Source: Paraprevotella xylaniphila YIT 11841
Lineage (GTDB): Bacteria > Bacteroidota > Bacteroidia > Bacteroidales > Bacteroidaceae
NCBI RefSeq assembly: GCF_000205165.1
Contig: NZ_GL883826.1
Span: 1-57,246, forward strand
Reading direction: 5' to 3'
DNA: 57,246 nucleotides
The notes under the pieces were generated by a model that was not told the origin of the DNA, made no database searches, and worked only from the letters and a program-made list of their open reading frames with translations. This document shows positions 9,637 through 48,354 of this stretch, piece after piece (within the stretch, counting starts at the first letter, position 1; each line of letters starts with the position of its first letter). A program made the translations under genes and the position numbers.

Positions 9637-9869
9637 GAAATGACGCTAAACGACTTAATATCAGAGTTGTTACGGTGTCAAATGATGACAAGCCGAAAAA
9701 GCGGAAAACGCAAAGAAAAGCGGATTTAAGAAGAAGAATGGTTTGCAAATCATTACCCGTGAAAGAGTAAGATTTAACATATGGGAGATGCTATTGCACC
9801 GTTTGTCACCGATTTGCATATCAAGGTCTAACTCGTTGATATTTAACTTTGCAAACAAAAAAAACGAGT
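9637..9869. other. Element left end, no gene
   Basis: Non-coding. An AT-rich stretch contains the integrase promoter at 9844-9851. No convincing arm-type repeats were identified. Confidence 0.4.
9844..9851 (+). promoter_or_regulatory. Promoter -7 element for the integrase
   Basis: TAACTTTG matches TAnnTTTG, with a TTG-containing -33 region (CGTTGAT) upstream. It lies 18 bp before the chosen ATG at 9870. Confidence 0.6.
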
Positions 9870-11090
9870 ATGGCAAGAAGTACATTCAAAGTGCTGTTCT
9901 ACGTGAACGGCAGCAAGGAGAAAGACGGTATTGTCCCCATCATGGGACGAGTGACAATCAACGGTACTGTGGCGCAGTTCAGCTGCAAGCAGACCATCCC
10001 GAAAACCCTTTGGGATGCGAAAGGCAACCGAGCCAAAGGCAAGAGTGCCGAAGCACGGAACGTCAATCTGGCATTGGACAACATCAAGGCGCAAATCATC
10101 AAGCACTATCAGCGCATATCCGACCGAGAGGCATACGTAACGGCTGAAATGGTGCGCAATGCCTACCAAGGGGTAGGAAGCGAGTATGAGACACTGATAA
10201 AGGCTTTTGACAAGGATTGCGCCAACTTCCTGAAACGTGTCGGTAAAGACCGCAGCATCGGCACGTACAAGGTCATGGTAAGGGCAAGGAACTATGTCGC
10301 AGCCTTTATCAAGTCATTCTACAGACGGACGGACATGTCCATGCTGGAACTTACACCCGACTTCATCAAGGAGTTTGCGGCTTATCTTACGGCTGAACGG
10401 GGACTGAAAAACGCCACCATCTGGCTGAACTGCATGTGGCTGAAAGGGGTGGTCATGCGTGCGCACTATAACGGACTGATACCGAGAAATCCGTTTGCGC
10501 AGTTCCATATCAGCCCGAATGTTAAGGAACGGGAGTATCTGACAGAGGACGAAATCAAAAGAATCATGGCGCACGAGTTTGACAACCCCACCCTCGCATT
10601 GGTGCGGGATCTGTTTATTTTCGCCTGTTTCACCGCCTTGTCTTTCGTGGATATGAAAGAACTCACAACGGATGAAATAGTGGAGGTGAATGGTGAGAAA
10701 TGGATATTGTCGAAACGGCACAAGACAAATGTCCCGTTCCAAGTGAAGCTGCTGGATATTCCCTTGCAGATAATCGAACGGTACAAGTATCTGTCGGAAG
10801 ACAAGCTGGTTTTCGGGAAAATCAACTATTGGACGATGTGCAAACAGCTGAAAAAGGTAATGGCGGAATGCGGAATAGAGAAGCAAATCTCCTACCATTG
10901 CGCTCGTCATACGTTTGGAACACTGGCTCTTAGCAAGGGGATGCCCATTGAAAGCGTGAGCCGTGTTCTGGGACACACGAACATTGTCACGACTCAAATC
11001 TATGCGAAGATAACCACGCAGAAACTTGACAATGACCTGACGATGTTCGGCAACAAGCTGAACGCATCGTTCGGAAGTGTAACCCCATAA
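9870..11090 (+). CDS. Tyrosine recombinase / integrase
   Basis: A site-specific recombinase of 406 residues that would integrate and excise the element. It has an N-terminal arm-binding and SAM-like region (about 1-215) and a C-terminal catalytic domain with HCARHTFG (His-x-x-Arg), LGHTNIV (His) and the nucleophile Tyr in TTQIYAKI. The usual first catalytic Arg (TGLR-type motif) is replaced: the site reads CFTALSFVDMKEL. Many Bacteroides element integrases, including the CTnDOT type, show this change. The ATG at 9870 (MARSTFKVLF) fits the family; a TTG further upstream lies inside the promoter. Confidence 0.92.
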   Translation: MARSTFKVLFYVNGSKEKDGIVPIMGRVTINGTVAQFSCKQTIPKTLWDAKGNRAKGKSAEARNVNLALDNIKAQIIKHYQRISDREAYVTAEMVRNAYQGVGSEYETLIKAFDKDCANFLKRVGKDRSIGTYKVMVRARNYVAAFIKSFYRRTDMSMLELTPDFIKEFAAYLTAERGLKNATIWLNCMWLKGVVMRAHYNGLIPRNPFAQFHISPNVKEREYLTEDEIKRIMAHEFDNPTLALVRDLFIFACFTALSFVDMKELTTDEIVEVNGEKWILSKRHKTNVPFQVKLLDIPLQIIERYKYLSEDKLVFGKINYWTMCKQLKKVMAECGIEKQISYHCARHTFGTLALSKGMPIESVSRVLGHTNIVTTQIYAKITTQKLDNDLTMFGNKLNASFGSVTP

Positions 11091-11102
11091 CCAAGCATAG
11101 CC

Positions 11103-11480
11103 ATGAAACGAAGCATCATAACAACAGACGGTAACATCATCATGCCGACCGACATTAGCGCAACCGCCATGAGCGAATGGGAACTTTGCGACCTGTTCGG
11201 AGTAACCGCCCCGACATTCCGTGCAGGGCTGAAGGCTCTTTGCAAGAGCGGAGTTTTAAGGGAATACGGGATAAGGCGAAGCATACGGGTATCCGATAAT
11301 TGCTGTATGGAGGTTTACAACCTTGAAGCGATAGTTACCCTCGCTTTCCATATCGGCACATTCGGAGCGGAACGGGTACGCAATGCCGTTCTTGAAATAC
11401 TGTACCTGCGAAAAGAGAAAACAAGCATCTTCTTCTCGCTGAATACCAACGGTATATCCAAATCCGAATACTTCTCGTAG
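11103..11480 (+). CDS. Small DNA-binding-like protein of mobilizable elements
   Basis: 125 residues, starting 12 bp after the integrase stop, so probably co-transcribed. The middle part (SEWELCDLFGVTAPTFRAGL, then LKALCKSGVL) looks like a helix-turn-helix, followed by a segment (YNLEAIVTLAFHIGTFGAERVRNAVL) resembling proteins encoded beside integrases in Bacteroides elements. A role as excisionase or recombination accessory factor is inferred from position only. A strong terminator follows at 11554. Confidence 0.6.
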   Translation: MKRSIITTDGNIIMPTDISATAMSEWELCDLFGVTAPTFRAGLKALCKSGVLREYGIRRSIRVSDNCCMEVYNLEAIVTLAFHIGTFGAERVRNAVLEILYLRKEKTSIFFSLNTNGISKSEYFS

Positions 11481-11506
11481 CTGAATGCCTGACATAATTC
11501 ACTCGG

Positions 11507-11532
11507 TAAGTCAGTAATTCATTAAGTCAGTA
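11507..11532 (+). repeat. Short direct repeat TAAGTCAGTA x2
   Basis: TAAGTCAGTA occurs at 11507-11516 and 11523-11532, with 16-bp periodicity, just before the terminator. It may be a protein-binding site. Confidence 0.45.
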
Positions 11533-11553
11533 CGACAGACGCTCTGATTTTTT

Positions 11554-11595
11554 CTCCCGAAAAGCGTAATCCGACATTCGCTTTTCGGGAGTTTT
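11554..11595 (+). terminator. Intrinsic terminator after the integrase module
   Basis: A perfect 13-bp stem CTCCCGAAAAGCG/CGCTTTTCGGGAG followed by TTTT. It separates the integrase pair from the replication/mobilization genes. Confidence 0.85.
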
Positions 11596-11748
11596 CCGTT
11601 TGCACAACCCGTTTCCTGTCCCAAACCATTGAAAGTTTTTGTTTCGGGGGCTATTTGTCACCATTCTGCCGTGTTTTGCATAACAACCTATCCGATAATT
11701 GATTATATTTTTGCAGCTGGTAATTTTCAAACTTAAAACCATTTGATT

Positions 11749-12990
11749 ATGTCAGCTATCGAACAACAGGACAGCCACAGACCGCCATCGGATGGCGGCA
11801 TGGCAAAGGAAGAGTTTATCCGAGTGGGGACAACGCTCTATAAGATTGTGGAGCAGCCCAAACTGAACGGAGGGTATATAAGGAAACGCATCGCATGGAA
11901 CAACGAGACCCTGCGACAGGATTACGGCAAGGATTACATCGGCAGAGTTCCCAAGTATGACGGCTTCTGCACAGTACCCGAACACATCGGCTACCGTTCC
12001 GTGGTCGGCAAGTTCCTTAACCTCTACGAACCGATAGACCACCGACCGCAGGAGGGCGATTTATCGCATATCCAATCTTTGGTACGGCACATCTTCGGGG
12101 AACAGTACGAGTTGGGGATGGACTATCTGCAACTGCTCTACCTGCAACCAATTCAGAAGTTGCCTATCCTGCTGTTGGTGTCGGAAGAACGCAACACGGG
12201 CAAAAGCACCTTCCTGAACTTTCTGAAAGCCCTTTTTCAGAACAATGTGACTTTCAACACCAACGAGGATTTCCGCAGCCAGTTCAATTCCGACTGGGCT
12301 GGCAAGCTCCTTATCGTGGTGGATGAGGTGCTGCTCAACCGCAGGGAGGATAGCGAGCGGTTGAAGAACCTCAGCACCACACTTTCCTATAAGGTGGAAG
12401 CCAAAGGCAAAGACCGTGATGAGATTGCGTTCTTCGCCAAATTCGTGCTGTGTTCCAACAACGAGCATCTGCCCGTAATCATAGACGCAGGGGAAACACG
12501 CTATTGGGTGCGCAAGATAGACCGCTTGCAGTCCGATGATACCGACTTCCTGCAAAAGCTGAAAGCGGAGATACCCGCCTTTCTCCATTTCCTGCAACAC
12601 AGAAAACTGTCCACCGAAAAGGAAAGCCGGATGTGGTTCAACCCCACATTGCTGCATACAGAAGCCTTGCAGAAGATTATCCGTAGCAACCGCAATCGGC
12701 TGGAGATAGAGATGTCGGAACTGCTGCTTGACATTATGGTTGCAATGGATGTGGATAGCGTTTCATTCTGCCTTAACGACCTTGTCGTACTGCTGGTGCA
12801 CTCGCAGGTAAAGGCGGAAAAGCACCAAGTGCGTAAGGTGGTGCAGGAGTGCTGGAAACTGACACCTGCACCAAACGGGCTTACCTACACCACCTATCAG
12901 GGCAATTACAACAGAAGTTGTCACTATGAGCCGATAAAGAGGGTGGGACGCTTCTACACCGTCACAAGGAAGCAACTCGAATCCCTGTAA
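11749..12990 (+). CDS. SF3/D5-like helicase (replication protein of mobile element)
   Basis: 413 residues with a Walker A-type loop in SEERNTGKSTFLNFL and a Walker B-type LLIVVDEVLLN. These are followed by FVLCSNNEHLPVII (sensor/B' Asn) and an Arg-containing ETRYWVRKI. This is the pattern of viral- and plasmid-type superfamily 3 primase-helicases (D5/DUF5906-like). It probably unwinds element DNA for replication after excision or transfer. The ATG at 11749 was chosen. The primase gene lies 251 bp downstream, beyond a palindromic region. Confidence 0.75.
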   Translation: MSAIEQQDSHRPPSDGGMAKEEFIRVGTTLYKIVEQPKLNGGYIRKRIAWNNETLRQDYGKDYIGRVPKYDGFCTVPEHIGYRSVVGKFLNLYEPIDHRPQEGDLSHIQSLVRHIFGEQYELGMDYLQLLYLQPIQKLPILLLVSEERNTGKSTFLNFLKALFQNNVTFNTNEDFRSQFNSDWAGKLLIVVDEVLLNRREDSERLKNLSTTLSYKVEAKGKDRDEIAFFAKFVLCSNNEHLPVIIDAGETRYWVRKIDRLQSDDTDFLQKLKAEIPAFLHFLQHRKLSTEKESRMWFNPTLLHTEALQKIIRSNRNRLEIEMSELLLDIMVAMDVDSVSFCLNDLVVLLVHSQVKAEKHQVRKVVQECWKLTPAPNGLTYTTYQGNYNRSCHYEPIKRVGRFYTVTRKQLESL

Positions 12991-13241
12991 TACTATCATT
13001 TTTCTGTTGAATTGTTGAATATGGGTATAAATACACTGACAATAAACGATATACATTCTCAACAAAATCTCAACAAGCCAAAAGAGAAGTTGAGAGACCA
13101 CCGACACCCGTTTGTGGATTTCTCTTTTGGCGAGCGGTTTGTTGAGAAGATGTTGAGAGGTTACGAGGCTGTATATAAACATATTACATTGACAATTCAT
13201 CAAATCAACAAATTTTCATCAACTTCAAAACCGTATGTAAT
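12991..13241. other. Palindromic intergenic region, possible replication origin
   Basis: It holds a large inverted repeat. The arm 13057-13088 (TCTCAACAAAATCTCAACAA, then GCCAAAAGAGAA) faces 13120-13158 (TTCTCTTTTGGC, then TTGTTGAGAAGATGTTGAGA), and GTTGA/TCAAC motifs recur through the region. A 77-codon frame crosses it, but its sequence is shaped by the palindrome. The position between helicase and primase suggests an origin; this is inference. Confidence 0.45.
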
Positions 13242-14213
13242 ATGACAATCCAAGATGTAAAGCAAATCAAACTGGCAGACTATCTGCAAAGTCTGGGCTA
13301 TACGCCTGTAAAGCAACAAGGCAGGAATCTGTGGTACAAATCACCGTTACGGGAAGAAACGGACGCATCGTTCAAGGTAAACACCGAGCTTGAAAAATGG
13401 TATGACTTCGGCATCGGCAAAGGCGGAAACATCCTCGCATTGGCAGCGGAACTCTACCGTTCGGAAGATGTAGCCTATCTGTTGAGACGCATAGAGGAGC
13501 GGACAGCATACATCCGCCCTGCATCGTTCTCTTTTGGCAGACAGCATTCCGACAATCGTACTTATCAGGGATTAAAGGTTGGAGAATTGTCCTCCCCTGC
13601 TCTTATAGCCTATCTGCAAGAAAGGGGAATAAACATCGGACTTGCCAAAAGAGAATGCAGGGAGCTTCGGTTTATGAATGCCGACAAACCCTATTTTGCC
13701 ATCGGCTTTCCGAACATGGCAGGAGGATATGAAGTGCGCAACAGATACTTCAAGGGATGTGTCGCCCCGAAAGATATCACCCATATCCGACAGCAGGGCG
13801 GACAACGATGTATGTGTTACCTGTTCGAGGGGTTCATGGATTACCTTTCATTCCTTACCATCCGAGTAGAAAACAATCCGCAACACCCGCGATTGGACAC
13901 ACAGGACTATATCATATTGAACTCCGTTTCCAATCTTGCAAAAGCGGAAAGCATATTGGAGACCTACACCCAAGTCGGCTGTTTCCTTGACAACGACACG
14001 GCAGGACGGAACACTTGCAAGAAGCTGAAAGAGAAGTTTGGGGAACGGCTGCTTGACAAGTCAATGTACTATCGTGAGTATAAGGACTTGAACGACTACC
14101 TGTGCGGTAAGCCCTTGTCCCAATCGGCAGAGCCGATAAAGGAGAAGAAGCAAGTCCAATCCGCAAGGCGGATGATGCAGCCACCGAAAAAGAAAGGGGG
14201 ATTTCATCTGTAA
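13242..14213 (+). CDS. Toprim-domain DNA primase of mobile element
   Basis: 323 residues. The N-terminus (LADYLQSLGY, LWYKSPLREETDASFKV, WYDFGIGKGGNIL) matches the CHC2-type primase fold, but the zinc Cys/His ligands are not evident. The Toprim domain shows the Glu motif YLFEGFMDYLSFL and the Asp motif CFLDNDTAGRNT. The C-terminus is basic (ARRMMQPPKKKGG). It would make primers for element replication or complementary-strand synthesis after transfer. Similar proteins are standard in NBU/Tn4555-like elements. Confidence 0.82.
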   Translation: MTIQDVKQIKLADYLQSLGYTPVKQQGRNLWYKSPLREETDASFKVNTELEKWYDFGIGKGGNILALAAELYRSEDVAYLLRRIEERTAYIRPASFSFGRQHSDNRTYQGLKVGELSSPALIAYLQERGINIGLAKRECRELRFMNADKPYFAIGFPNMAGGYEVRNRYFKGCVAPKDITHIRQQGGQRCMCYLFEGFMDYLSFLTIRVENNPQHPRLDTQDYIILNSVSNLAKAESILETYTQVGCFLDNDTAGRNTCKKLKEKFGERLLDKSMYYREYKDLNDYLCGKPLSQSAEPIKEKKQVQSARRMMQPPKKKGGFHL

Positions 14214-38713: not shown

Positions 38714-40684
38714 TCACCACCACACCTGTCTTCCCTGCTCGTAGGTGAAGATGCGTTCTTCCTTTCCTTTGGACAGGTCGCGCAGCCAGTACAGCCCGCC
38801 GGACGGGACGTTGCGGAACCGCAGGCAGATGTTCGCGGCTTCCTGTTTGCCCAAAGAACTCCATCCCTGCCCGTTCCAGTAGAACAGCTCGTAAGTGTCG
38901 CCGATGTCTATCGTGTTGCCGTCGCCCCGTGCGGTGTAGATGATGCGTTCCAAGGCCACGGGGCGGCCAAAGTCCATGCCGGCCCATGCCCCGGCCGGGA
39001 GGGGCGCGTCGAAGAACGTGAGCAGGTCGTCGTCGAACACCTTGTCCTTCGTGCCCTCCGGGTTCCCCTCCCAATGGCCGTCCGTGCCGATGATTTTGCC
39101 CTTTATCTGTTTGTGGCTTCCCCTTTCATAAAAACGGATGTCGGCGATGTTGCAGTATGAGCCTTCCTTGGGTTGGTAGAACCGCCAGTAGCGGTAGGGG
39201 CGTACGGTGTCGGACAACAGGATTTCCTTTCCTGTGGCCGAGCAGTCCGTCACGCGATGGAGTACGGTTTTCTCCTTGAAACGGGCTTCGTTGGAGGCTT
39301 GGAACTCCCCGCTGTCGATACGCATGATGACTTCCTGTACATGGGGCAGGACGGGATATTTGCGCCACAGCACGAGGTCGGTACGTCGCGTCGTGTCGGC
39401 TATGACGGGACGTACCTTGCCGCCGTAGGCAAAAAGGAACGGGGCGGCCAAAGGTTTCATTTTTCCTCCTTCCTCATAACATACGGGCAGGTAGACCGTG
39501 TTCATTCCCACTTTATGGAATGTGGCTTTCCCGTCTTCCATCCGTGCAAAGTCCACCGGTACCCATTCCTTGTTGTCGAACACCGTGAGGAAGGCATAAT
39601 GCCCGTCTTTTCCTTCCGGCACGTGGATGGCCGCATCCCGGCAGTCCATGTATTCTTCCGTCACGTCCCTGACGAACGGGTTGCGGAACATGTCCGGCAC
39701 GTATTCTTCCGTTTGGAGCATCCGGCGGAGTTCCGGGTTCATGGCGTATGTGCGCCGGAACACCTTGGGCATGCGTTCGCCCAACTTGTGGGGCTGTCCG
39801 GGGTTGCTGCATGCACCGCTGAAAGGGATGCGCTTGCCGTCCTCGGCCAGCAGGATGTTCCAGGAATGGCCCAGGCTGCGGAAAGCCCATTGCGGTGTGA
39901 AGTCCATTGCCACAGGGATGCCCTGGCTCCGGAACACGGACGTGGCTATGGTGCCGTAATCCGCACAAGTACCGATGGGAAGCCTCAGGCGGGTACGCCA
40001 ACGATGGACGGGCAGCAGGATGGTTTCGTCCGTGATGCCCGGTTTCATGTAATACCACAGGTTGTCGTTCAGCTTGATACCGGCCTGCAGGGCGGAATTC
40101 CGGTACAGGTCGCAATAGGCCAGTTCGTCGAGATGGTCGGGGTGGAACGAGCGCAGATGCGTGCGCCAACCGTCCAAGGGCTGAAGTTCCTCGGCCTTGT
40201 AAGGCAACAGGTATTCACAGAAATCCTCAAAGCCCAGATGCCGTGCCCATGGTCCTTCCTTCCATTGTACGAACGCGCTGTCTATGTTTTGGATGAGGAA
40301 ACCGGCGGTGACGATTTTCACGTCCTGCACTTTTCGGGGACGCAAATGGCCGAACCTCCGGCTGAGGGCTACCAGAGAGTCCCGCACCACCCATTTGTCC
40401 GTCGTGTCCTTCATGGCCGTGAGCAGGGAGTCCACGGCGTTATAATATGGTGTGAATGCCGCCGTGTCGGTTTGCGAGTAATGCCCCGGCATGTGCCGGA
40501 TGAGGTATTTGGCGGCCTCCAGTTTCAGGGAGTCACCGGCATAATGCGCCAGTACTTTTTCCAGTTCCGTGCGGTTTTCCCCGGCCATTTCCAAGGCTTC
40601 CTCAAGCAGGGGGTCGTGCGTGCGGTCGCAGGCCGGGAATGCCATGCCGCATGTGATGGCCGCAAAAAGGATGTATCTTCTCAT
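38714..40684 (-). CDS. Lipoprotein with transglutaminase-like and discoidin-like domains
   Basis: 656 residues. The N-terminus (MRRYILFAAITCGMAFPACD) carries a lipobox with Cys19. A transglutaminase-like core lies around residues 240-300: the nucleophile Cys in PIGTCADYGT and the His in SLGHSWNILLAEDG. The last 140 residues (RYWRFYQPKEGSYCNIADI, VALERIIYTARGDGNTI) look like an F5/8 type C (discoidin) domain. It is the last gene of a minus-strand operon and overlaps the O-antigen-ligase-like gene by 4 bp (ATGA). It might cross-link or hydrolyse a peptide. That is inference. Confidence 0.75.
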   Translation of the reverse strand: MRRYILFAAITCGMAFPACDRTHDPLLEEALEMAGENRTELEKVLAHYAGDSLKLEAAKYLIRHMPGHYSQTDTAAFTPYYNAVDSLLTAMKDTTDKWVVRDSLVALSRRFGHLRPRKVQDVKIVTAGFLIQNIDSAFVQWKEGPWARHLGFEDFCEYLLPYKAEELQPLDGWRTHLRSFHPDHLDELAYCDLYRNSALQAGIKLNDNLWYYMKPGITDETILLPVHRWRTRLRLPIGTCADYGTIATSVFRSQGIPVAMDFTPQWAFRSLGHSWNILLAEDGKRIPFSGACSNPGQPHKLGERMPKVFRRTYAMNPELRRMLQTEEYVPDMFRNPFVRDVTEEYMDCRDAAIHVPEGKDGHYAFLTVFDNKEWVPVDFARMEDGKATFHKVGMNTVYLPVCYEEGGKMKPLAAPFLFAYGGKVRPVIADTTRRTDLVLWRKYPVLPHVQEVIMRIDSGEFQASNEARFKEKTVLHRVTDCSATGKEILLSDTVRPYRYWRFYQPKEGSYCNIADIRFYERGSHKQIKGKIIGTDGHWEGNPEGTKDKVFDDDLLTFFDAPLPAGAWAGMDFGRPVALERIIYTARGDGNTIDIGDTYELFYWNGQGWSSLGKQEAANICLRFRNVPSGGLYWLRDLSKGKEERIFTYEQGRQVWW

Positions 40685-42453
40685 AAGGCTTTGTCTTTTC
40701 TATGTGTTTTTGGAGTGTGGGTTTGCCGGAGCAGTCCTTCCGCTTCTTCTTTCATTTTCCGTACGGCAGGCGAATCCACCTTGGCACGGAAGGCTACTAT
40801 CCGCCGCGCCATGTCCCGTGCCTTTCCGCCTTCGCCCGTGGCTTCGTACAGCTTCATGAGGCGGTAGAGGGGATAGGCGCGGTCGGGCAACAGGCTGAAA
40901 GCCTTGCGATAGGCCGTTTCGGCCTCACGGGCGGCTCCGAGGTCAAGGTAATTGTTCCCCATCATGACATGGAACATGGGGTCGCAACTTACGAGCGTGC
41001 CTTGTCGCAGGGTGGCGTTGCTGTCGTTATACCGTCCCAGTTCGCGCAGGGCATTACCGTAGGTGAACAGGTACTCGGGCCGGTTTTCCAACAGATTGTA
41101 ATTCTTTCGGAAATCATCCACGAAGGCGGCATCCTGTATGCCGGAGAGGGCACGGTATTCCCTGTAGGCTTCCACCCGTGTCCTTGTTCCTGCCGTCCAC
41201 CATGCGGCAGGCACGGCCAACGATACGGCCACGACGGCTCCTGCGGCCTTTTTCCACCAGACGGTCCCCATGCCGGTTCCGGCCTGCAGGCTTACGGCGT
41301 AGGCCGCCCATCCCGTAGCCCACAGGCGGAACGGCCATAGGGCGAACGGATAGGAAAACATTGAGGCCACGAGCAGGGCTATATAGCCGCAGGCCGACAC
41401 TTCGCGTTTTCGCACGAGGATGAAAGCCGTCCACGAAGTAATCGTGAGCGCGCAGGCCATGCCGATGAGACCCTGCTCCACGCCCACTCCGGCCAGACCG
41501 TTGAAGGCATATTCCGGACTTCCGGCCACGGACAGCAACGGGGAATTCGGATGCCCGGCGAAGAACGCGGCTTGTGCTTCCCCGTAGGCGTGGGCGAAAC
41601 CGCCCAGTCCGTGTCCTGTCAGCCATTCCGCCATCCATGCCTTTCCGGCTACGATGGCCATCAGCAGGCGGCCGTCGGCCGAACCTTGTTTCATGAAATA
41701 AGCACATGCACCGAGGATGGCGGCTGCGGCCAACCCTCCAAGCACCATGCGGTGGTGGCCACGCCATAGCATGACGGCAAGGGCTACCGCCAGAGCCACC
41801 CATGCCGTGCGGCTCCATGTGGCGGCCAACACCGGCAGTCCGGCTGCCCATAGGGCGTATACGGTTGCACGGGATACTTTGTCCGGACGGGACAATCCTG
41901 TCCATGCCCCTTTATGGTCGTACAGCCATGCGGCGGCTACTGCCAGCGCAATGGCCACCAGGATGGCGTACGGGCCGGGATTGAAGAATGTGCCCGTCAG
42001 GGCATAACGGTAGTGGTGTGAAGGTTCCCAACCGGCCAGTTGGGCGATTCCGGTATAGGTTTGGTAAAGTCCGGCCAAGCATAGTCCGGCGGTCCATACC
42101 TGCCCGAATGCCTTTCCGCAAAAAGGGATGGCGAGGCGCAAGGCCGCATAGGCAAGGCACAAGGCTTCGGCTTCGCGGAAGTCTTCCGTGGCCGGATAAG
42201 GGGAGAGGAACCAATAGTTGCAGGCCATGTAAAGTGCCCATAGCAGGACGATGGCATCCAAGGCGTGCGGCCTTGGCCACTGCTGTGCCCGGAGGGAGGC
42301 ACAGGAAGCCGCGATGGACAACATGGCCACCATCCCGTAACACCATACGTCGGAAACAGACGGGTAGGCCACCGTCTGCCATACCGCCGGGAGGCACAGG
42401 CAGGTCGTCAGGATGGCGGCCATGCCGTATCGTGTCAGGTCATGCCGCTTCAT
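40681..42453 (-). CDS. O-antigen ligase/Wzy-like membrane protein with C-terminal TPR
   Basis: 590 residues with about eleven hydrophobic segments. The Wzy_C-type region includes ATWSRTAWVALAVALA and a large periplasmic loop with WLTGHGLGGFAHAYGEAQ and AFNGLAGVGVEQGLIGM. The C-terminal 150 residues are TPR-like (YLFTYGNALRELGRYNDS, GNNYLDLGAAREAETAYR). Proteins of this type join glycans to lipid or protein acceptors at the periplasmic face. It overlaps the S26 peptidase gene by 14 bp. Its operon neighbours suggest that it could modify an exported peptide or lipoprotein. Confidence 0.72.
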   Translation of the reverse strand: MKRHDLTRYGMAAILTTCLCLPAVWQTVAYPSVSDVWCYGMVAMLSIAASCASLRAQQWPRPHALDAIVLLWALYMACNYWFLSPYPATEDFREAEALCLAYAALRLAIPFCGKAFGQVWTAGLCLAGLYQTYTGIAQLAGWEPSHHYRYALTGTFFNPGPYAILVAIALAVAAAWLYDHKGAWTGLSRPDKVSRATVYALWAAGLPVLAATWSRTAWVALAVALAVMLWRGHHRMVLGGLAAAAILGACAYFMKQGSADGRLLMAIVAGKAWMAEWLTGHGLGGFAHAYGEAQAAFFAGHPNSPLLSVAGSPEYAFNGLAGVGVEQGLIGMACALTITSWTAFILVRKREVSACGYIALLVASMFSYPFALWPFRLWATGWAAYAVSLQAGTGMGTVWWKKAAGAVVAVSLAVPAAWWTAGTRTRVEAYREYRALSGIQDAAFVDDFRKNYNLLENRPEYLFTYGNALRELGRYNDSNATLRQGTLVSCDPMFHVMMGNNYLDLGAAREAETAYRKAFSLLPDRAYPLYRLMKLYEATGEGGKARDMARRIVAFRAKVDSPAVRKMKEEAEGLLRQTHTPKTHRKDKAL

Positions 42454-43363
42454 TTTCGTCAGTTTGGGGAGATTGGGGATAGAGCAGGTTCAGTCCGGCG
42501 CGTTCCTTGCGTTCGCGTCCGGTAGTGCGGTCTATGGATTCCACCACTTCCGATACCACGCCCACGATGTATTCTTCCGGCACGAAGCCCCAATAGCGCG
42601 AGTCGCGTGAGTTGGCGGCATGGTCCCCGCATACGAAGTAGTAATTCCTTTGGAACCGGTAGTAGGGCAGGGGCTTCCCGCCGGAGAGGCAAACGTTCCG
42701 TTCCCCGTCCCAAATGAGCGGTTTGCGGGTCTCGAACTCGATGGCCATGCGGTAGATGTCCGCCTTGCGCCAGTCGTCCATCCGGATGATGTCGTCGCGT
42801 CTCGGCACGTAGAGCGGCCCCATGTTTTTCGCGCTCCATCCCAAGCGCGGGTCGCCCGTCAATATCGGCCACATTACGCCCCACGGCAGTTGGTCGTCGG
42901 GCACGCTTTCCAGTTGTTGCTGCATGTCGGGCACGCCTATCGTGCCGTGGTAGTTGTTGTTGACGGGGCGGCTGTGTACGAACGAGATGGTGTCGCCCGG
43001 CAGGGCCACACACCGTTTCACGTACACATAGTTGATTTTGAATCCTATTTTCCCGTCGTTGACAGGGTAGTTGAAGACGATGATGTCGTTCGGGCGCAGT
43101 CCGCGCCGTCCCCTTGTGCGCCAACACTCCAACCTGCCGTCCGTGAAGTCGAGGGATTTGTATATCCGCGCCCCGAAGATGAGCTTGTCCACCTTAACCT
43201 TATCTCCCGGCATCAGGGTGGGTTGCATGGAGTCCGACGGCACGATGAAAGTGTCTGCCACGAAGGCGCGCCAACCGTAGTGTATGCCCACGGCCAACAC
43301 GGTAGCTACACACAAAAGGCTAAGGGCGAATATACCTTTATATATATAAGTGCCTATTGTCAT
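42440..43363 (-). CDS. lepB: Signal peptidase I, S26 family
   Basis: 307 residues. One N-terminal transmembrane segment (about 7-28) is followed by the nucleophile Ser45 in VPSDSMQPTLMPGD and the general base Lys116 in VYVKRCVALPGDTI. Box E reads FVCGDHAANSRDSRYWGFVP. It is complete and larger than some housekeeping LepB proteins. It sits in an operon with a NVEALD-type small protein, so it may cut that leader specifically. A remnant of a second S26 start is at 45594-45633. Confidence 0.9.
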   Translation of the reverse strand: MTIGTYIYKGIFALSLLCVATVLAVGIHYGWRAFVADTFIVPSDSMQPTLMPGDKVKVDKLIFGARIYKSLDFTDGRLECWRTRGRRGLRPNDIIVFNYPVNDGKIGFKINYVYVKRCVALPGDTISFVHSRPVNNNYHGTIGVPDMQQQLESVPDDQLPWGVMWPILTGDPRLGWSAKNMGPLYVPRRDDIIRMDDWRKADIYRMAIEFETRKPLIWDGERNVCLSGGKPLPYYRFQRNYYFVCGDHAANSRDSRYWGFVPEEYIVGVVSEVVESIDRTTGRERKERAGLNLLYPQSPQTDENEAA

Positions 43364-43380
43364 TAAGGCTTTATAATGAG

Positions 43381-43893
43381 CTATTTTTTTAAGGCTTTTC
43401 TATATAAATTCCACATTTTAGGAGTTTCAATAGGATCCCCCACTAATATTATTTGGTTTTTGGGAGATAGTAAGAAAGTGGAATATTTTACTTTTTCCAA
43501 AATTGGATTTAGCTTGATTAATTCTTCATATGTATGGGTCTTATGTAATCCATAAAGATTAATCATAGAATCAACGTTGGACGATAGTCTAATGTCCTTG
43601 GGTAGCACAAAGGTTATGCTTGTTGGTTGTAAGTCTCGGTCTTCCATATCCAAACTGTAGATATACCAATTATTAACATGCATGTTACAAGCAGAACAGT
43701 CCCCTGTATCCTTTATTAAAACAAGAATCTTATTTTGTTCTTTTTGAAGAATGGAATCTTTAGGCATTTTGATGTTATTATTAGTGAGTGTCTTCACTTT
43801 TTGTTTTATTTCCTGTTCATGGCTATTACATGAGAAGAAGCATAACGCAATAAGGCTTGCGAAGACTATACGTTTGATTTGTTTATTTTTCAT
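43381..43893 (-). CDS. Thioredoxin-like lipoprotein with CxxC
   Basis: 170 residues. MKNKQIKRIVFASLIALCFF is followed by the lipid Cys22. The CxxC is Cys65-Ser-Ala-Cys68 in TGDCSACNMHVNNWY, and the C-terminal KVKYSTFLLSPKNQIILVGD resembles the cis-Pro-like last strands of AhpC/TlpA-type folds. A related C-terminal fragment is encoded at 46185-46487. In this operon it would be well placed to form or break disulfides in the Cys-rich small protein. Function inferred. The ATG at 43893 overlaps the end of the propeller gene. Confidence 0.65.
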   Translation of the reverse strand: MKNKQIKRIVFASLIALCFFSCNSHEQEIKQKVKTLTNNNIKMPKDSILQKEQNKILVLIKDTGDCSACNMHVNNWYIYSLDMEDRDLQPTSITFVLPKDIRLSSNVDSMINLYGLHKTHTYEELIKLNPILEKVKYSTFLLSPKNQIILVGDPIETPKMWNLYRKALKK

Positions 43894-44881
43894 TGAAATC
43901 ATATGTGTAAATTATGTTTGGAGTTTCTGAGCACATTGCATATAATATGTTATCTTCGGAAATACTAAATAAGTCAAAAGGCTTATCAAATAGAATACGT
44001 CTTTTTAATTCACCCTTCCATGACCATAATTGAACTTCTAATATAATATTTAATTTTTTATATAGTTCACTCATTGTATACCCTCTGCTATAAAGTGCGA
44101 CAATGTAATGTGAATTAGCACTTATTTTATGATAACAGCATTGGGATTCATAGGCACTATTTTTCTGTGGGCGTTCAAATGAATCTTTAATTTTTATTTC
44201 TTTCACTAAATTACCATTAGTATCATATGAACGGATTAAATTCATATAATAATAGAAATCCCATATTTGTTTTTTGTCAGTTCTTCCTACTGTAGATTTA
44301 AAATTAAACTTAAATCGCTCTTCTTTCTGTAGTGATTGCTCTGGATATTCTCCAAAAAAACTATATTCTCCGTCTTTATATAGGATATGTTCTCCTTCTT
44401 GTCCATTGGTAAGCCCTGAGGCAATATAACTGTCAATACCTGTTTTAACAAGTTGGTTTAGTGCGTCGGGGATGATGATAGGTGTCCTGTCAATGCACTT
44501 TAGCCGACCGTTTTTTATTGTTATTTCTTTTTCTATATTAGCATCCAATGCAAAAAAAGAACTATCTGTACATGAAAAATAGTTGCGATTTAAATTGATG
44601 AATTCATCTAAAGTGTGTCCTTTACTTCCTCCTGAAAATAATAGGTTTAAACTATCCTTGTTCAGGACAACGAATAACTTATCGGAAGCATTGGGCTGCA
44701 TAAAAAGTAGTTTGTCGTGAAAGACATTTAAAGAACGTGGATACGTGATGATGCTATCTATGTTATGTTGGGTTAATGTCTGTTTTTCAATAGGCGTTTT
44801 TTCTAAATCGCACTCTTCTTTTTGTATATTTTGGCAACTAAAGAGTGTTGCGATAGACATTACTATTATTTTTAATTTCAT
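43883..44881 (-). CDS. BF3164-like six-bladed propeller lipoprotein 1
   Basis: 332 residues. MKLKIIVMSIATLFSCQ gives a lipobox with Cys16. The mature part shows propeller-like strand pairs such as NVFHDKLLFMQPNASDKLFV, SCTDSSFFALDANI and HKISANSHYIVALYSRGYTM, as in the TolB-like BF3164 lipoprotein family. Function in the family is unknown. It lies 100 bp after the small NVEALD-type gene. The ATG at 44881 was chosen because the longer frame has no lipobox at the start. Confidence 0.65.
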   Translation of the reverse strand: MKLKIIVMSIATLFSCQNIQKEECDLEKTPIEKQTLTQHNIDSIITYPRSLNVFHDKLLFMQPNASDKLFVVLNKDSLNLLFSGGSKGHTLDEFINLNRNYFSCTDSSFFALDANIEKEITIKNGRLKCIDRTPIIIPDALNQLVKTGIDSYIASGLTNGQEGEHILYKDGEYSFFGEYPEQSLQKEERFKFNFKSTVGRTDKKQIWDFYYYMNLIRSYDTNGNLVKEIKIKDSFERPQKNSAYESQCCYHKISANSHYIVALYSRGYTMSELYKKLNIILEVQLWSWKGELKRRILFDKPFDLFSISEDNILYAMCSETPNIIYTYDFNEK

Positions 44882-44968
44882 GGCATGCATAATAAAATAG
44901 AGTGTTTGTTTATACTCAATTATTAAAAGCCGCCTTGGTTTATTGAACACCAAAACGACTTTTTTCAA

Positions 44969-44983
44969 AAGAGGATTCCTCTT
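44969..44983 (-). terminator. Possible leaky terminator after NVEALD gene 1
   Basis: AAGAGGAATCCTCTT on the minus strand overlaps the stop codon of the small protein gene; TTG and then AAAAAAG follow. It is weak, and would let the propeller, CxxC and S26 genes be made at lower levels than the small protein. Confidence 0.35.
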
Positions 44984-45281
44984 ATTTAGTACATTTGCTA
45001 GACTCTGTATAATCAGAACAGTCTTCTGTCATACAAGTAGCGCAATACATCGTATTTAAAGAACCTTCACCTCTGTCTCTTAGAACTTTGTAGCATTCGT
45101 ATTCTTTCTTTTCCCCCTTGTCGTCATCTTCATAGTCGGATGCTAATACTTCAATGTTTTCAAGAAACAAATCGCTTTCACTCGCGACTTTGTTTTTTTC
45201 ATAAGTTTGATACCCCGAGTATCCTGTAGTACCAATTACCATTGCACCAATTAAAGATGCCAAAGTTGTTTTCATTTTCAT
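44982..45281 (-). CDS. NVEALD-type exported small protein 1 (Cys-rich tail)
   Basis: 99 residues. A hydrophobic leader (MKMKTTLASLIGAMVIGTTG) is followed by SDLFLENIEVLA (NVEALD-like motif, residues 37-48), and then an acidic, variable tail with five Cys at 63, 80, 83, 88 and 97. The first 48 residues match the second small protein in 42 positions, while the tails do not align. This leader/variable-tail pattern is like that of precursor peptides. It precedes propeller, CxxC and S26 genes. The mature form and activity are unknown. Confidence 0.75.
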   Translation of the reverse strand: MKMKTTLASLIGAMVIGTTGYSGYQTYEKNKVASESDLFLENIEVLASDYEDDDKGEKKEYECYKVLRDRGEGSLNTMYCATCMTEDCSDYTESSKCTK

Positions 45282-45312
45282 GGATCTTTCTTTTTAGTCG
45301 TTTATAATATTT

Positions 45313-45337
45313 CTTTGTGAGGCTCTTCCTCCCAAAG
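45313..45337 (-). promoter_or_regulatory. Conserved 5' UTR hairpin of NVEALD gene 1
   Basis: The minus strand reads CTTTGGGAGG-aaga-GCCTCACAAAG, a hairpin with CTTTG/CAAAG and GAGG/CCTC stems. The same hairpin, with compensating-type changes, is at 47951-47975. It probably acts in mRNA stability or translation. Confidence 0.5.
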
Positions 45338-45345
45338 TGTCATTG

Positions 45346-45353
45346 CAAAAGTA
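45346..45353 (-). promoter_or_regulatory. Promoter -7 element for NVEALD gene 1
   Basis: The minus strand reads TACTTTTG (TAnnTTTG); the following GCAATGACACTTTGGGAGG is the same as before gene 2. Confidence 0.6.
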
Positions 45354-45593
45354 TATGATTTAAAAATGGGCTGCAAATATTTTCAAGAAAGATTTCTATT
45401 ATGACGTGCTTTTGACGCAAAGGATGTAGGACTTGACGCATTTGTATATAAAATACTTTGATGGGTGTCAAAATTACATCTTATAAAATAACCTTGTGGG
45501 AGATGTTTCAGGAGGTTGGGAGGGCAGAGTAGTAACTCGTACCATACGTTGTTTTACAATGGATGGATATTAATATAGGGCGAATGGTATGTT
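45354..45593. other. Intergenic region between duplicated modules
   Basis: AT-rich, non-coding. The part at about 45465-45515 (TGTCAAAATTACATCTTATA, then GGGAGATGTTTCAGGAGG) resembles 48090-48145 upstream of the other copy, so it marks the duplication edge. No other feature is seen. Confidence 0.5.
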
Positions 45594-45633
45594 GGGCGAA
45601 TATACTTTTATATATGTAATCTCCCGTATTCAT
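45594..45633 (-). pseudogene. Remnant of an S26 signal peptidase start
   Basis: The minus strand reads MNTGDYIYKSIFAQ, close to the intact peptidase start MTIGTYIYKGIFAL, and the DNA GGGCGAATATAC-TTTATATAT is shared. The frame is lost after about 13 codons. The ATG overlaps the stop of the preceding DoxX-like remnant (ATGA). Confidence 0.6.
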
Positions 45634-46151
45634 TTTTGCAGGGTTTGTTTTTCTTTTTTCCTTATCCATGCGATGAGGAGGAACCCGGTCAACAAGCAGA
45701 AGCCATGCCGGTATGCGACCTAACTGTTCCATGCGGCGAGCTGCTTGAGGTGCGTGACATGGTGTATCGGTTTGGTTGGGCGAGTGTCTAAATTCCATTT
45801 GGCACGGATGATACTGTTTTCCACGATGAGGATACCTTTTTCGTTGCGGAGTATGGACTTCAGGGTCACTTCATCAGCATAACAGGTTTCCATTGTGTTT
45901 CTTTCGTTCAAGCCCGGGAGAGACATGAGGCAAAGGGAGATGTCTCCTTGCTTCGCCAAGGTGTTAAGTGCCTTCAGTTTCTCCCAATCCTCCGCTTTCA
46001 GTTCTTTCCTTGCCGTAATGATGGCCAATGGCCTGCTTCCCGACAGGTTGATCAGCGAATCCGTCACTTCTTCGTATTGCCCGTTGAAGATGGCGAAGTC
46101 GGGATGCCCATTGAGGTTTGTTCCCCGGTTGTAAGGCAGAAAGTCCTGCAT
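45630..46151 (-). pseudogene. DoxX/MauE-like redox membrane protein, C-terminal remnant
   Basis: An open stretch (46151 to 45720) reads MQDFLPYNRGTNLNGHPDF, then EVTDSLINLSGSRPLAIITA and DEVTLKSILRNEKGILIVEN. It resembles the C-terminal domain of Bacteroidales DoxX-family proteins. The N-terminal membrane part is missing. After a TAG at 45720 the same frame continues with FCLLTGFLLIAWIRKKEK, a probable final transmembrane helix ending at the next stop. Frameshift or stop mutations have inactivated it. It is part of the decayed second module. Confidence 0.45.
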
Positions 46152-46184
46152 GGTGGTCTATCATAAAGGTGGGAGCGATAATGT

Positions 46185-46487
46185 TTATCGTCCCACAGAA
46201 TCTTTCGGTTCTCCTAACTTCTCTTTCACGATGCGCCAAAATAACTTTTTAATACGTGGGTTACTTGTAGGGTCGCCTACTAATATGACATTGTTTTGTT
46301 CGTCTAATAAAAAAGTTTGTAGCAACGATGATTTGGGAATATTCCTATTTTTATTTAAAAAAGCATTTACAGTATCTACATAAACATGGCTGTTCAGGTC
46401 TGCCTTTTTCCTCATAGACAAACGTAATTCGTTTCTTTTGAAAGAAAGAGGTTGAAATATAAACTCTATTAAACTTAATTTATTCAT
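46185..46487 (-). pseudogene. Thioredoxin-like lipoprotein, C-terminal fragment
   Basis: 100 codons, starting just after the propeller 2 stop. The C-terminal half matches that of the intact CxxC lipoprotein (SSLLQTFLLDEQNNVILVGD against YSTFLLSPKNQIILVGD). The lipobox and the CxxC are absent, so it is probably truncated and non-functional. If translated it would be cytoplasmic. Confidence 0.6.
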
Positions 46488-46494
46488 AGCATAC

Positions 46495-47580
46495 TTAGGA
46501 TGGATTCTCTTGTATTTTGAACGTAACTAACAGTGGATTCATAAAACCTTTGTCTAAATAATCTTTTATTAAATTGTAGATGTATGATTCTTTAGTGACA
46601 AAATCAGGATATATTAAGGCATAAAATGTATCTGAACTTGCACCGATAACAGTTAGTCCCGTATCTTTGTCTGAAGGACCTGCGTATGCTTGTCCGCTTT
46701 TTTTGTTGTAAAATACATCATAATAAGTTTGTGATGGCCCTGCTGTTCTTAAATATAAGTAATCCGAATTTTCTTGAATAGACAAGATGGACTTGAAATA
46801 AGATTGCATATTGTCAGTCTTATTAAATTCATCATAGTTCTTAGGCAAATATTCTTCAGGTAGGTTTTGGCCATTGAAGTCAACATGGTATTTGGGCTTT
46901 AATTGTCCATTCTCATAGTTATCTATCGTGAATTGTCCATAATCCGGATATACTACATAGTTTGTATTAGAATAAAGAAAGTGACTATAAACTAATTGAT
47001 ACCCTTTACGTTCTCTTAAACCCGTTAAAACGCTGACGCTGTCCAACTGGTAAATGCTATAATCTTTGTTTGTAGAAAAAAGCAAATAGGATTTTTTATC
47101 ATAAGGCATGAAACTATAGAAGTTCCCCATGTCAATATTGTCTATCTCTCTTTTACAAATGAAGCTTCCGTTTTCTGAATTATAAACCTTAATACCACTA
47201 AGGTCTAATATTTCTATGTTAGATTCATCTTTGTTGAAATTTACATCTCGCAAGTCAATGTATTCATTTCGTGCGTTCCCTCTTCTTCCTGCCGTGAACA
47301 GAAAATCGCCTTTATGATTGAATACATAAACAGTCTTAGCTTTGTAATCCCAAAAAAGTATACGGTTTGTCCCTATTATGCACTTTTGAGCAAGAGACAA
47401 AAAAACAGAATCCGCTTCGCTCCCCAAAGGAACAATATCATTTACCTTTATTAAAGAAGACCAATCAGAAAACTCAGTGTTGGTTAGTTTAATAGTTTCA
47501 TAATTCTCTTCTTTTTGTGTGCAAGAGAATAAAATAAATAAGGATAAACAAATCCCCAATGAAAAATTACGTATATACAT
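46495..47580 (-). CDS. Six-bladed beta-propeller lipoprotein 2
   Basis: 361 residues. MYIRNFSLGICLSLFILFSC gives a lipobox with Cys20. Repeated strand patterns appear (ILFWDYKAKTVYVFNHKGDF, EILDLSGIKVYNSENGSF, YLLFSTNKDYSIYQLDS), typical of Bacteroides 6-bladed beta-propeller lipoproteins. It is the only intact gene besides the small protein in the upstream, decayed module. Ligand unknown; the family often sits beside NVEALD genes. The start at 47580 was chosen for the lipobox. Confidence 0.7.
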   Translation of the reverse strand: MYIRNFSLGICLSLFILFSCTQKEENYETIKLTNTEFSDWSSLIKVNDIVPLGSEADSVFLSLAQKCIIGTNRILFWDYKAKTVYVFNHKGDFLFTAGRRGNARNEYIDLRDVNFNKDESNIEILDLSGIKVYNSENGSFICKREIDNIDMGNFYSFMPYDKKSYLLFSTNKDYSIYQLDSVSVLTGLRERKGYQLVYSHFLYSNTNYVVYPDYGQFTIDNYENGQLKPKYHVDFNGQNLPEEYLPKNYDEFNKTDNMQSYFKSILSIQENSDYLYLRTAGPSQTYYDVFYNKKSGQAYAGPSDKDTGLTVIGASSDTFYALIYPDFVTKESYIYNLIKDYLDKGFMNPLLVTFKIQENPS

Positions 47581-47652
47581 GGTATCGTATGTGATAATGA
47601 AAAACAAAATGCAGGCTCTTAATTGATGTCAAAAGCCCGAATTTTATAAAAA

Positions 47653-47919
47653 TTAGCAGTCACTTGGTACACAGTCATCGGCATCACCGAATCTCTTACA
47701 AGTTACGGAATTTTTATAGTCAATCTGGTAAGGACACGGACTAGAAATTACCTCCCATCCTTTATAACTTTCATTATTTGCCAAGGCTTCAATGTTTTCA
47801 AGGAACAAATCACTTTCATTCGCTGCTTTGTTCTTTTCATAAGTTTGATACCCCACGTATCCCGTAGTACCAATTACCATTGCACCAATCAAAGATACTA
47901 AAGTTGTTTTCAATTTCAT
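47653..47919 (-). CDS. NVEALD-type exported small protein 2 (Cys-rich tail)
   Basis: 88 residues. The leader MKLKTTLVSLIGAMVIGTTG and SDLFLENIEALA (37-48) are nearly the same as in small protein 1. The tail of 40 residues is different and has four Cys at 62, 74, 83 and 88 (SSPCPYQIDY, TCKRFGDADDCVPSDC). A hairpin with GGCT/AGCC follows before propeller 2. The longer frame to 47973 is upstream UTR sequence that is conserved as RNA, not as protein. Confidence 0.75.
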   Translation of the reverse strand: MKLKTTLVSLIGAMVIGTTGYVGYQTYEKNKAANESDLFLENIEALANNESYKGWEVISSPCPYQIDYKNSVTCKRFGDADDCVPSDC

Positions 47920-47950
47920 AGTTCTTATTTTAAGTTCGTTTATAATGTTT

Positions 47951-47975
47951 CTTTGTGAGACTCTCCCTCCCAAAG
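47951..47975 (-). promoter_or_regulatory. Conserved 5' UTR hairpin of NVEALD gene 2
   Basis: The minus strand reads CTTTGGGAGG-gaga-GTCTCACAAAG, the same fold as at 45313-45337, with a C-to-T change that keeps G:U pairing. Confidence 0.5.
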
Positions 47976-47983
47976 TGTCATTG

Positions 47984-47991
47984 CAAATATA
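47984..47991 (-). promoter_or_regulatory. Promoter -7 element for NVEALD gene 2
   Basis: The minus strand reads TATATTTG (TAnnTTTG), with the same downstream leader as gene 1. Confidence 0.6.
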
Positions 47992-48354
47992 TGTGGTTTG
48001 GGAATAAACTGCAAACTTTTTGAATGATTTTTTTAAATTTCGTTTTTAACACAAAAATGTATTATTAAGCATATTTCTATTCAAAATAGCTTGAAGAGTG
48101 TAAAAATTATATCTTGTAAAAGGTGTTGTGAGAAATGCCCCAAGGAGTCGGAAAGACACTGTAGAAACAACCGTCAAACGATTCTCCGATGTGCTCCAAA
48201 CGATTTTTTGTTCTGCTGTGAACGGAGGACAGGGCTAAGGCCAACGGGATAGAGATGCCTGCTTCCATATACAATGTGTTCATTCAAAAAAAGGTTCGCA
48301 TCCTTCATACTTGCTGTAATTCAGTTTGTTAAGGTGAACTTTCTCGGGGATTAG

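Follow-up and report, generated by a model that had tools for sequence, protein, structure and literature searches.

A recurring gene set of Bacteroidota, apparently for cutting, folding and exporting small, fast-changing cysteine-rich peptides, with a complete and a decayed copy in Paraprevotella xylaniphila

Among the described systems that come closest to the one considered here are the bacteroidetocins, small multi-cysteine peptides of Bacteroidetes whose leader is cut off and whose loci carry a thiol oxidoreductase and a membrane protein; according to excerpts of that report, the leader is of the double-glycine type, with 15-16 amino acids (aa), and is accompanied by an ABC peptidase-transporter (PMC6671954). 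In the same excerpts Bacteroides is described as having no general disulfide machinery, and local thiol oxidoreductases likely supply the oxidation (PMC6671954). The locus analyzed in this work lies in a window of 57,246 nucleotides (nt), which is the whole of contig NZ_GL883826.1 of the 3.79-Mb genome of Paraprevotella xylaniphila YIT 11841, and consists, on the minus strand and in this order, of a precursor gene of the NVEALA family (NVEALA-b), a propeller lipoprotein (propeller-b), a CxxC lipoprotein, an S26 signal peptidase, a Wzy_C/TPR membrane protein that resembles the O-antigen ligase WaaL, and a transglutaminase-like (TGase-like) lipoprotein. An earlier sequence-only reading of this DNA had listed the same six gene types in the same order, and all of them are present with family evidence, although the precursor family, called NVEALD in that reading, is named NVEALA in Pfam (PF14055). 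Unlike the bacteroidetocins, the system would make use of a membrane helix followed by an A-x-A site, an S26 peptidase, a cognate propeller protein and, at some loci, an RND pump; a double-glycine leader was not found in either precursor of the window, where EALA stands before NN and EVLA before SD, in both cases after the membrane helix. We propose, with a probability of about 0.72, that the genes serve to mature and export small peptides with disulfide bonds, each peptide being matched by a lipoprotein of its own. The gene set recurs in many Bacteroidota, where it appears to act in the cleavage, folding and export of fast-changing Cys-rich peptides. No description of such a system was found in the literature searched, which did not cover subscription journals and preprints, and none of six sought terms was present in a paper on the mining of ribosomally synthesized and post-translationally modified peptides (PMC10352776).

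The first line of evidence is the recurrence of the gene set. Across 101 genomes of the same family as the window's genome, S26 (E<=1e-20, 19 positive) and NVEALA (E<=1e-3, 22 positive) occurred together in 16, S26 only in 3, NVEALA only in 6 and neither in 76 (Fisher p=3.7e-11), and 91 of the 99 NVEALA matches fall in S26-positive genomes, with up to 19 matches per genome. In two of the discordant genomes the missing part proved to be present: G069, counted as S26 only, has an NVEALA gene by our own model, and G091, counted as NVEALA only, has an intact 238-aa cluster-type S26 (L259, 1498-3142, C46) that was missed by the single-sequence search and recovered by a profile search and inspection of the locus, and which sits between a CxxC/DUF1573-like protein and a WaaL-like gene. 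Neighborhoods were then scanned with our own hidden Markov models (HMMs) for the WaaL-like/TPR (OLIG), TGase-like (TGASE), propeller (PROP) and CxxC lipoprotein (CXXC) genes, among others. In 20 S26-centred regions we counted OLIG 13 times, TGASE 13, NVEALA 12, PROP 11, CXXC 11, HlyD 10, TolC 9 and RND 9; in 39 NVEALA-centred regions, a set that excludes contigs already in the S26 set and genome G038 and in which one region (L156) has no precursor by our own model, PROP was counted 29 times, CXXC 18, TGASE 8, S26 6, OLIG 5 and RND 5; and in 78 TGASE loci from several orders of Bacteroidota, drawn from the best 80 of 334 matches, OLIG was counted 50 times, PROP 32, S26 30 (28 of them with at least 200 aa) and NVEALA 24. 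The S26 gene stands within 3 kb of OLIG in 11/20 cases of the S26 set and 26/30 of the TGASE set, and within 3 kb of TGASE in 12/20 and in 24/30, the latter set being itself chosen by TGASE. OLIG has a HlyD gene within 3 kb in 9/13 cases (S26 set) and 13/50 (TGASE set), and NVEALA genes are flanked by HlyD and RND in L154 and by TolC and HlyD in L194. The neighborhood survey that the sequence-only reading had called for shows the partners recurring around S26, TGASE and NVEALA genes; in 20 control stretches, picked by round coordinates and not at random, the parts were absent apart from a LepB-type pair in one stretch and an MG2 gene in one. Bacteroidota encode many exported proteins, a general observation that would allow for a chance neighborhood of unrelated export genes; this explanation is contradicted by the control stretches, by the Fisher test and by the finding of the same kind of locus in Sphingobacterium, and we regard it as very improbable.

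The second line of evidence comes from the precursors. From the loci we gathered 142 distinct NVEALA precursors, of which 135 fit a position-limited site pattern; by inspection, the motif is missing from two of the other seven and lies in a short or truncated frame in the remaining five. The NVEALA motif resembles an A-x-A signal-peptidase site in a displaced position: it lies a median of 22 residues past the hydrophobic core (range 15 to 27, n=124 leaders), farther than the cleavage site of ordinary signal peptides. Among 404 within-genome pairs of precursors, drawn from 23 genomes or records with at least two of them, identity is 0.88-0.94 at P4-P1, 0.19 at P1' and about 0.07 from +6 on. A comparable step is found in the DNA of the window, which holds upstream a second unit (unit a, with NVEALA-a and propeller-a): blastn aligns units a and b at 84% identity across 256 columns that begin ahead of the promoter and run through the leader, the match stops in both copies at the last codon of the EALA/EVLA motif, and the tails and propellers downstream are unrelated, the best propeller match being 29% over 51 aa. 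A tandem duplication of whole units was rejected because only promoter, 5' untranslated region (UTR) and leader are alike. Conotoxin precursors, too, combine a constant leader with a hypervariable Cys-framework tail; the likeness is one of design only, as the present precursors are bacterial, have a paired propeller gene and stand in a locus of their own. The one tail used as a query for likeness to solved proteins had no match at E<=1. At one locus (L070, 17910-19739) five consecutive NVEALA genes have near-identical leaders and differing tails, with no propeller called between them; one tail type is apparently common, by eye, to the window's genome and to Sphingobacterium, whose leader is without the NVEALA motif.

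The cysteines of the tails and the enzyme encoded nearby point in the same direction. After removal of tails shorter than 15 aa or 0.70 alike (135 to 127), Cys was present in 126 of the 127 non-redundant tails, in even number in 95 and in odd number in 31, with no tail having exactly one (binomial p=5e-9); Cys makes up 7.7% of tail residues vs 0.8% of leader residues. In the CxxC lipoprotein, C69 and C72 are invariant in 11/11 relatives, the window protein has no Pfam family, and its profile matches StoA (E=4e-4) and ResA (E=0.007), in agreement with the disulfide-type enzyme that the sequence-only reading had seen in it. MauE-family proteins were found at several loci (by Pfam in the three tested, and by the BT3928 model in 4/20 S26-centred regions), and the CxxC protein of L081 and L082 extends into a part that we label DUF1573-like.

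The third line of evidence concerns the propeller lipoprotein as a matched partner. Downstream of the 135 precursors we found a propeller by our own model in 70, another protein of at least 300 aa in 32, an NVEALA gene in 9, a CxxC lipoprotein in 6, a shorter open reading frame (ORF) in 6, nothing in 9 and a contig end in 3. Pfam analysis of 30 of the 70 model-positive partners revealed DUF5128 in 28, and that of all 32 large model-negative partners TolB_like in 24, DUF4221 in 4 and DUF5128 in 2 (overlaps not checked). Propeller-b, one of these 32, has no Pfam family match; against the profile of the 31 other members of the set it reaches E=1.7e-28 and 94.9 bits, the best of 500 shuffles giving 7.4 bits. 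It had seeded the first propeller model yet was lost from the final version, and because this final model misses diverged propellers, the propeller counts given in this work are low. Tails covary with the adjacent propellers and leaders barely do so: the correlation of tail and propeller similarity is r=0.56 (99 pairs; 0/999 permutations) and that of leader and propeller 0.13, and after removal of near-duplicates (92 pairs) they are 0.35 (0/1999 permutations) and 0.08 (70/1999). In addition, the nearest propeller in another locus belongs to the nearest tail in 24/92 cases (1.0 expected) and to the nearest leader in 0/92. All six tails that are paired with a CxxC lipoprotein match one Cys pattern, set by eye, which 12 tails match overall; the other six adjoin three model-positive partners, two large model-negative ones and one NVEALA gene.

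Given this adjacency and covariation, the likeliest role of the propeller would be to confer immunity to the peptide, with that of a peptide receptor as the alternative. The fuller form of the first suggestion, in which the tails are bacteriocin-like toxins and the propellers their cognate immunity lipoproteins, we hold tentatively, at odds somewhat below even. Besides the covariation, it is consistent with hypervariable tails after a constant leader, with the high number of matches in single genomes, with a local thiol oxidoreductase as described for bacteroidetocin loci in the excerpts of PMC6671954, and with the 48 of 127 model-found propellers that lack a small precursor ORF upstream, as expected of orphan immunity genes; however, these 48 include detection misses, 11 of the 79 'hits' are small ORFs that lack an NVEALA match and are in several cases doubtful, and the same excerpts report bacteroidetocin regions without an obvious immunity gene (PMC6671954). 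The second suggestion takes the tails for signaling or binding peptides and the propeller for a surface receptor or carrier (of a pheromone, a metal or a host ligand). It would explain the identical covariation, it agrees with tail families that are common to several genera together with similar propellers, and in Sphingobacterium (L203, 8849-9903) an ECF-sigma-like ORF and a possible anti-sigma ORF stand, by eye, directly before the TGASE gene; even so, we consider it rather unlikely.

Regarding the enzymes, S45 and K116 of the S26 protein, which we take to be the Ser/Lys dyad of this family, are invariant in 27/27 sequences. The cluster S26 shares the dyad and conserved boxes with signal peptidase I (LepB); unlike LepB, it would act on a site about 22 aa beyond the helix, and in a midpoint-rooted tree of 55 sequences its clade lies apart from four LepB-type sequences, which do not form one clade, L213 and L250 being also outside and branch support not examined. 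For the Wzy_C/TPR protein, the structure model has its best solved fold match in WaaL (7tpg_B; E=2.3e-6, prob 1.00, TMt 0.61). Unlike WaaL, it has a C-terminal TPR part and scores under the Pfam Wzy_C cut-off, and the column before N318, presumably that of the catalytic His of WaaL, holds F in 37, Y in 5 (F/Y in 42/45), L in 2 and V in 1 of 45 sequences, and never His. The TGase-like lipoprotein has in common with the transglutaminase core an invariant Cys and His (C240 and H273, 50/50). It differs in having an F5/8-like C-terminal part, in the absence of a conserved Asp from the 26 columns that follow the His (D261, 49/50, precedes it), and in its score for Transglut_core, 16.1 bits under a cut-off of 23; its structure model (pLDDT 93.4) has mostly transglutaminases as top Foldseek matches, at TM 0.08-0.18, so that the core at most is comparable. 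As judged from their alignments, both proteins appear to lack canonical residues, and given these residues and the Pfam scores we claim for them a place in the locus and not a chemistry. The glycan- or lipid-joining enzyme and the cross-linking enzyme of the sequence-only reading are therefore kept as protein types, WaaL-like and TGase-like with invariant Cys and His, and not claimed as activities.

This has a bearing on a further explanation, in which a glycan or lipid would be attached to the tail by the TGase-like and WaaL-like proteins and would keep the peptide on the cell. The WaaL fold, the invariant Cys and His and the short distance between S26 and TGASE genes in both region sets (one of them TGASE-chosen) would fit a surface-anchored peptide; the incomplete canonical residues and the association with pump genes, which suggests release, argue against it, and we find it unlikely. 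Other observations on these genes can be added. In the window's genome, a second WaaL-like/TPR gene, 56% identical to that of the window, lies at a contig end (L032, 852-11509, C81) and adjoins TolC, HlyD and two RND genes. At two other loci (L037, 194-4624, where a TGase-like gene is also present, and L033, 5657-10997) WaaL-like genes lie near another kind of small lipoprotein, by eye perhaps a second class of precursor.

Taken together, we hypothesize that the N-terminal hydrophobic helix of the NVEALA precursor would serve for Sec passage and inner-membrane anchoring, and that the dedicated S26 would cut at N-V-E-A-L-A, about 22 residues past the helix, as suggested by the site, the identity step and the co-occurrence of both genes. 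Oxidation of the freed Cys-rich tail would fall to the CxxC lipoprotein of the locus, together with a membrane partner of MauE type at loci that encode one, to judge from the protein family and the even Cys counts; the tail may then be processed by the WaaL-like and TGase-like proteins, and where pump genes adjoin, RND/HlyD would capture it in the periplasm and TolC pass it out, a step proposed from gene order. Promoter and leader would be the constant part of the unit, and tail and propeller an exchangeable cargo pair. The central idea of the sequence-only reading, that of one secreted-peptide system, is supported in this way by neighborhoods, genome co-occurrence, the A-x-A site within the motif and the identity step at it, Cys parity and tail-propeller covariation. 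A wider proposal would have many Bacteroidota share an arsenal, or a language, of peptides matured by a new route, made of Sec export, S26 cleavage at a displaced site, local oxidation, WaaL/TGase-like modification and periplasmic RND capture, with exchangeable tail-propeller cassettes set after a constant promoter and leader; to this we give close to an even chance, on the lower side of it.

Several observations weigh against the maturation and export locus that we propose. In 5 of the 22 NVEALA-positive genomes (G048, G087, G074, G077 and G038) only S26 genes of LepB type turned up, as judged from frame length and pairing, the NVEALA match of G038 being a doubtful 988-aa frame. Since these genomes showed only LepB-type genes, a strict dependence of the precursors on the cluster S26 was rejected, and LepB may cut precursors too; the dedicated leader peptidase named by the sequence-only reading is thus upheld as an S26 with a Ser/Lys dyad and not as a strict requirement. 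To go further and assign the precursors to the housekeeping LepB, with a different substrate within the locus for the cluster S26, would account for the NVEALA genes of those genomes; against the concentration of 91/99 matches in S26-positive genomes and the Fisher test, we judge this improbable. The distance between S26 and NVEALA genes is 3 kb or less in just 5/20 cases (S26 set) and 8/30 (TGASE set), and the counts of S26 (6/39) and OLIG (5/39) in NVEALA-centred regions imply that enzyme action would be mainly in trans. The same is implied by the window's genome, with twelve NVEALA matches (E<=1) on eight contigs, six of them above 1e-3 and two in doubtful-looking frames, where the S26 has no relatives at E<=0.01 other than LepB-type genes on contig C61. 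The region sets overlap and are not independent (L069 and L248 are the same contig), several loci cover their contig twice, and our HMM scan revealed no pump gene within the window. As for the precursors, two genomes of a single genus (G062 and G080) supply 214 of the 404 identity pairs, and a second A-x-A lies near the core end in 18/124 leaders. The residues counted at the site of the 135 precursors (P3 Ala in 127; P1 Ala in 97, Ser in 26, Thr in 6, Gly in 5 and Cys in 1) are partly built in, because the pattern admitted only small residues there; the choice of the P1' residue and the identity step are independent of this restriction. The b tail of the window has an odd number of Cys, namely five. 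Finally, Spearman coefficients over all pairs are 0.03 for tail-propeller and 0.13 for leader-propeller, which means that the tail signal is confined to related pairs, most tail pairs being unrelated.

If the proposal is right, some common gut bacteria would make up to a dozen or more disulfide-rich peptides per genome via one shared route that is not described in the literature searched, most of these peptides would have their own matching lipoprotein, and families now without a role (NVEALA, DUF5128 and TolB_like) would obtain one. It would also be testable in a laboratory strain, for example B. thetaiotaomicron with the candidate genes BT0662-BT0669. In the excerpted expression tables of this species, BT0662 appears as an O-antigen ligase, BT0663 as hypothetical, BT0664 as a 6-bladed propeller, BT0667 as signal peptidase I and BT0669 as an RND adaptor, in separate rows with neighboring numbers and by annotation names alone (PMC10434189).

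The window holds one complete copy of the gene set (45395-38714) and one decayed upstream copy, whose features are given in the table. In the complete copy, genes overlap by 4 bp (Wzy_C/TGase) and 14 bp (S26/Wzy_C), as the sequence-only reading had noted in speaking of several overlaps of 4-14 bp, and also by 20 bp (propeller-b/CxxC), counted from the first ATG. In unit a, NVEALA-a and propeller-a are followed by a cut CxxC remnant, a MauE/BT_3928 remnant and maybe the start of an S26; the inventory of the sequence-only reading was right on its six gene types and had passed over unit a, the relative of MauE, the pump and the part proposed for the propeller as a cognate partner. The MauE/BT_3928 remnant, in the ORF 45720-46151, matches NF045576 at E=3.9e-11 and 42.7 bits, under the cut-off of 250. 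Starts of NVEALA-a and propeller-a were placed at ATG codons within the listed ORFs 47653-47973 and 46495-47607, respectively, and NVEALA-b reaches 27.2 bits, just over the PF14055 cut-off of 27, only with its neighbors in frame. A match to TTTG-N20-TAnnTTTG, which we take to be the Bacteroides promoter consensus, stands 65 nt upstream of the ATG in both NVEALA genes; with a spacer of 19-21 the pattern has 4 matches in the window vs 0.67 by chance, and 0/100 shuffles reach 4.

Table. Features of the two precursor units and of the adjoining genes in the window.
Feature	Position	Strand	Basis
Promoter-like site, unit a (TTTG-N20-TAnnTTTG)	47984..48015	-	pattern match
Promoter, 5' UTR and leader block of unit a	47779..48030	-	blastn, 84% DNA identity with unit b block
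NVEALA-a precursor, 88 aa, 47-aa leader ending ENIEALA, 4-Cys tail	47653..47919	-	PF14055 37.9 bits, cut-off 27
Propeller-a lipoprotein (DUF5128)	46495..47580	-	PF17170 E=1.8e-20, 73.8 bits, cut-off 22.9
CxxC thiol-oxidoreductase lipoprotein, C-terminal remnant	46185..46487	-	tblastn vs L017 protein, 40%/87 aa, E=3e-19
MauE/BT_3928-family membrane protein, C-terminal remnant, stop codon at 45720	45645..46175	-	tblastn 44%/178 aa
Possible S26-start remnant, 13 aa, weak	45595..45633	-	tblastn 69%/13 aa, E=0.87
Promoter-like site, unit b (TTTG-N20-TAnnTTTG)	45346..45377	-	pattern match
Promoter, UTR and leader block, unit b (aligned with 47779-48030)	45141..45395	-	blastn
NVEALA-b precursor, 99 aa, leader ending ENIEVLA, 5-Cys tail	44982..45281	-	PF14055 22.9 bits
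Propeller-b lipoprotein	43883..44881	-	profile of 31 other precursor-linked lipoproteins, E=1.7e-28
CxxC thiol-oxidoreductase-like lipoprotein	43381..43902	-	CxxC motif; profile matches StoA, ResA
S26 signal peptidase	42440..43363	-	PF10502 6.3e-27; TIGR02227 91.2 bits, cut-off 47
WaaL-like membrane protein, C-terminal TPR	40681..42453	-	fold match 7tpg_B; Wzy_C 21.1 bits, cut-off 31.7
Transglutaminase-like lipoprotein, F5/8-like part	38714..40684	-	invariant C240/H273; Pfam matches under cut-off

Some minor observations were made in the surroundings of these genes. MG2/macroglobulin-like proteins, called by our own model, with one Pfam-checked and under the cut-off, occur near S26, CxxC, WaaL-like or TGase-like genes in L085, L086, L088, L038 and L033, and radical-SAM-like ORFs were seen by eye near precursor loci in L016 (12366-13385) and L081 (14161-15174). 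Elsewhere in the window, ORFs at 9849-14213 form a block reminiscent of an integrative element, with recombinase-like, primase-like and small DNA-binding products as judged by eye.

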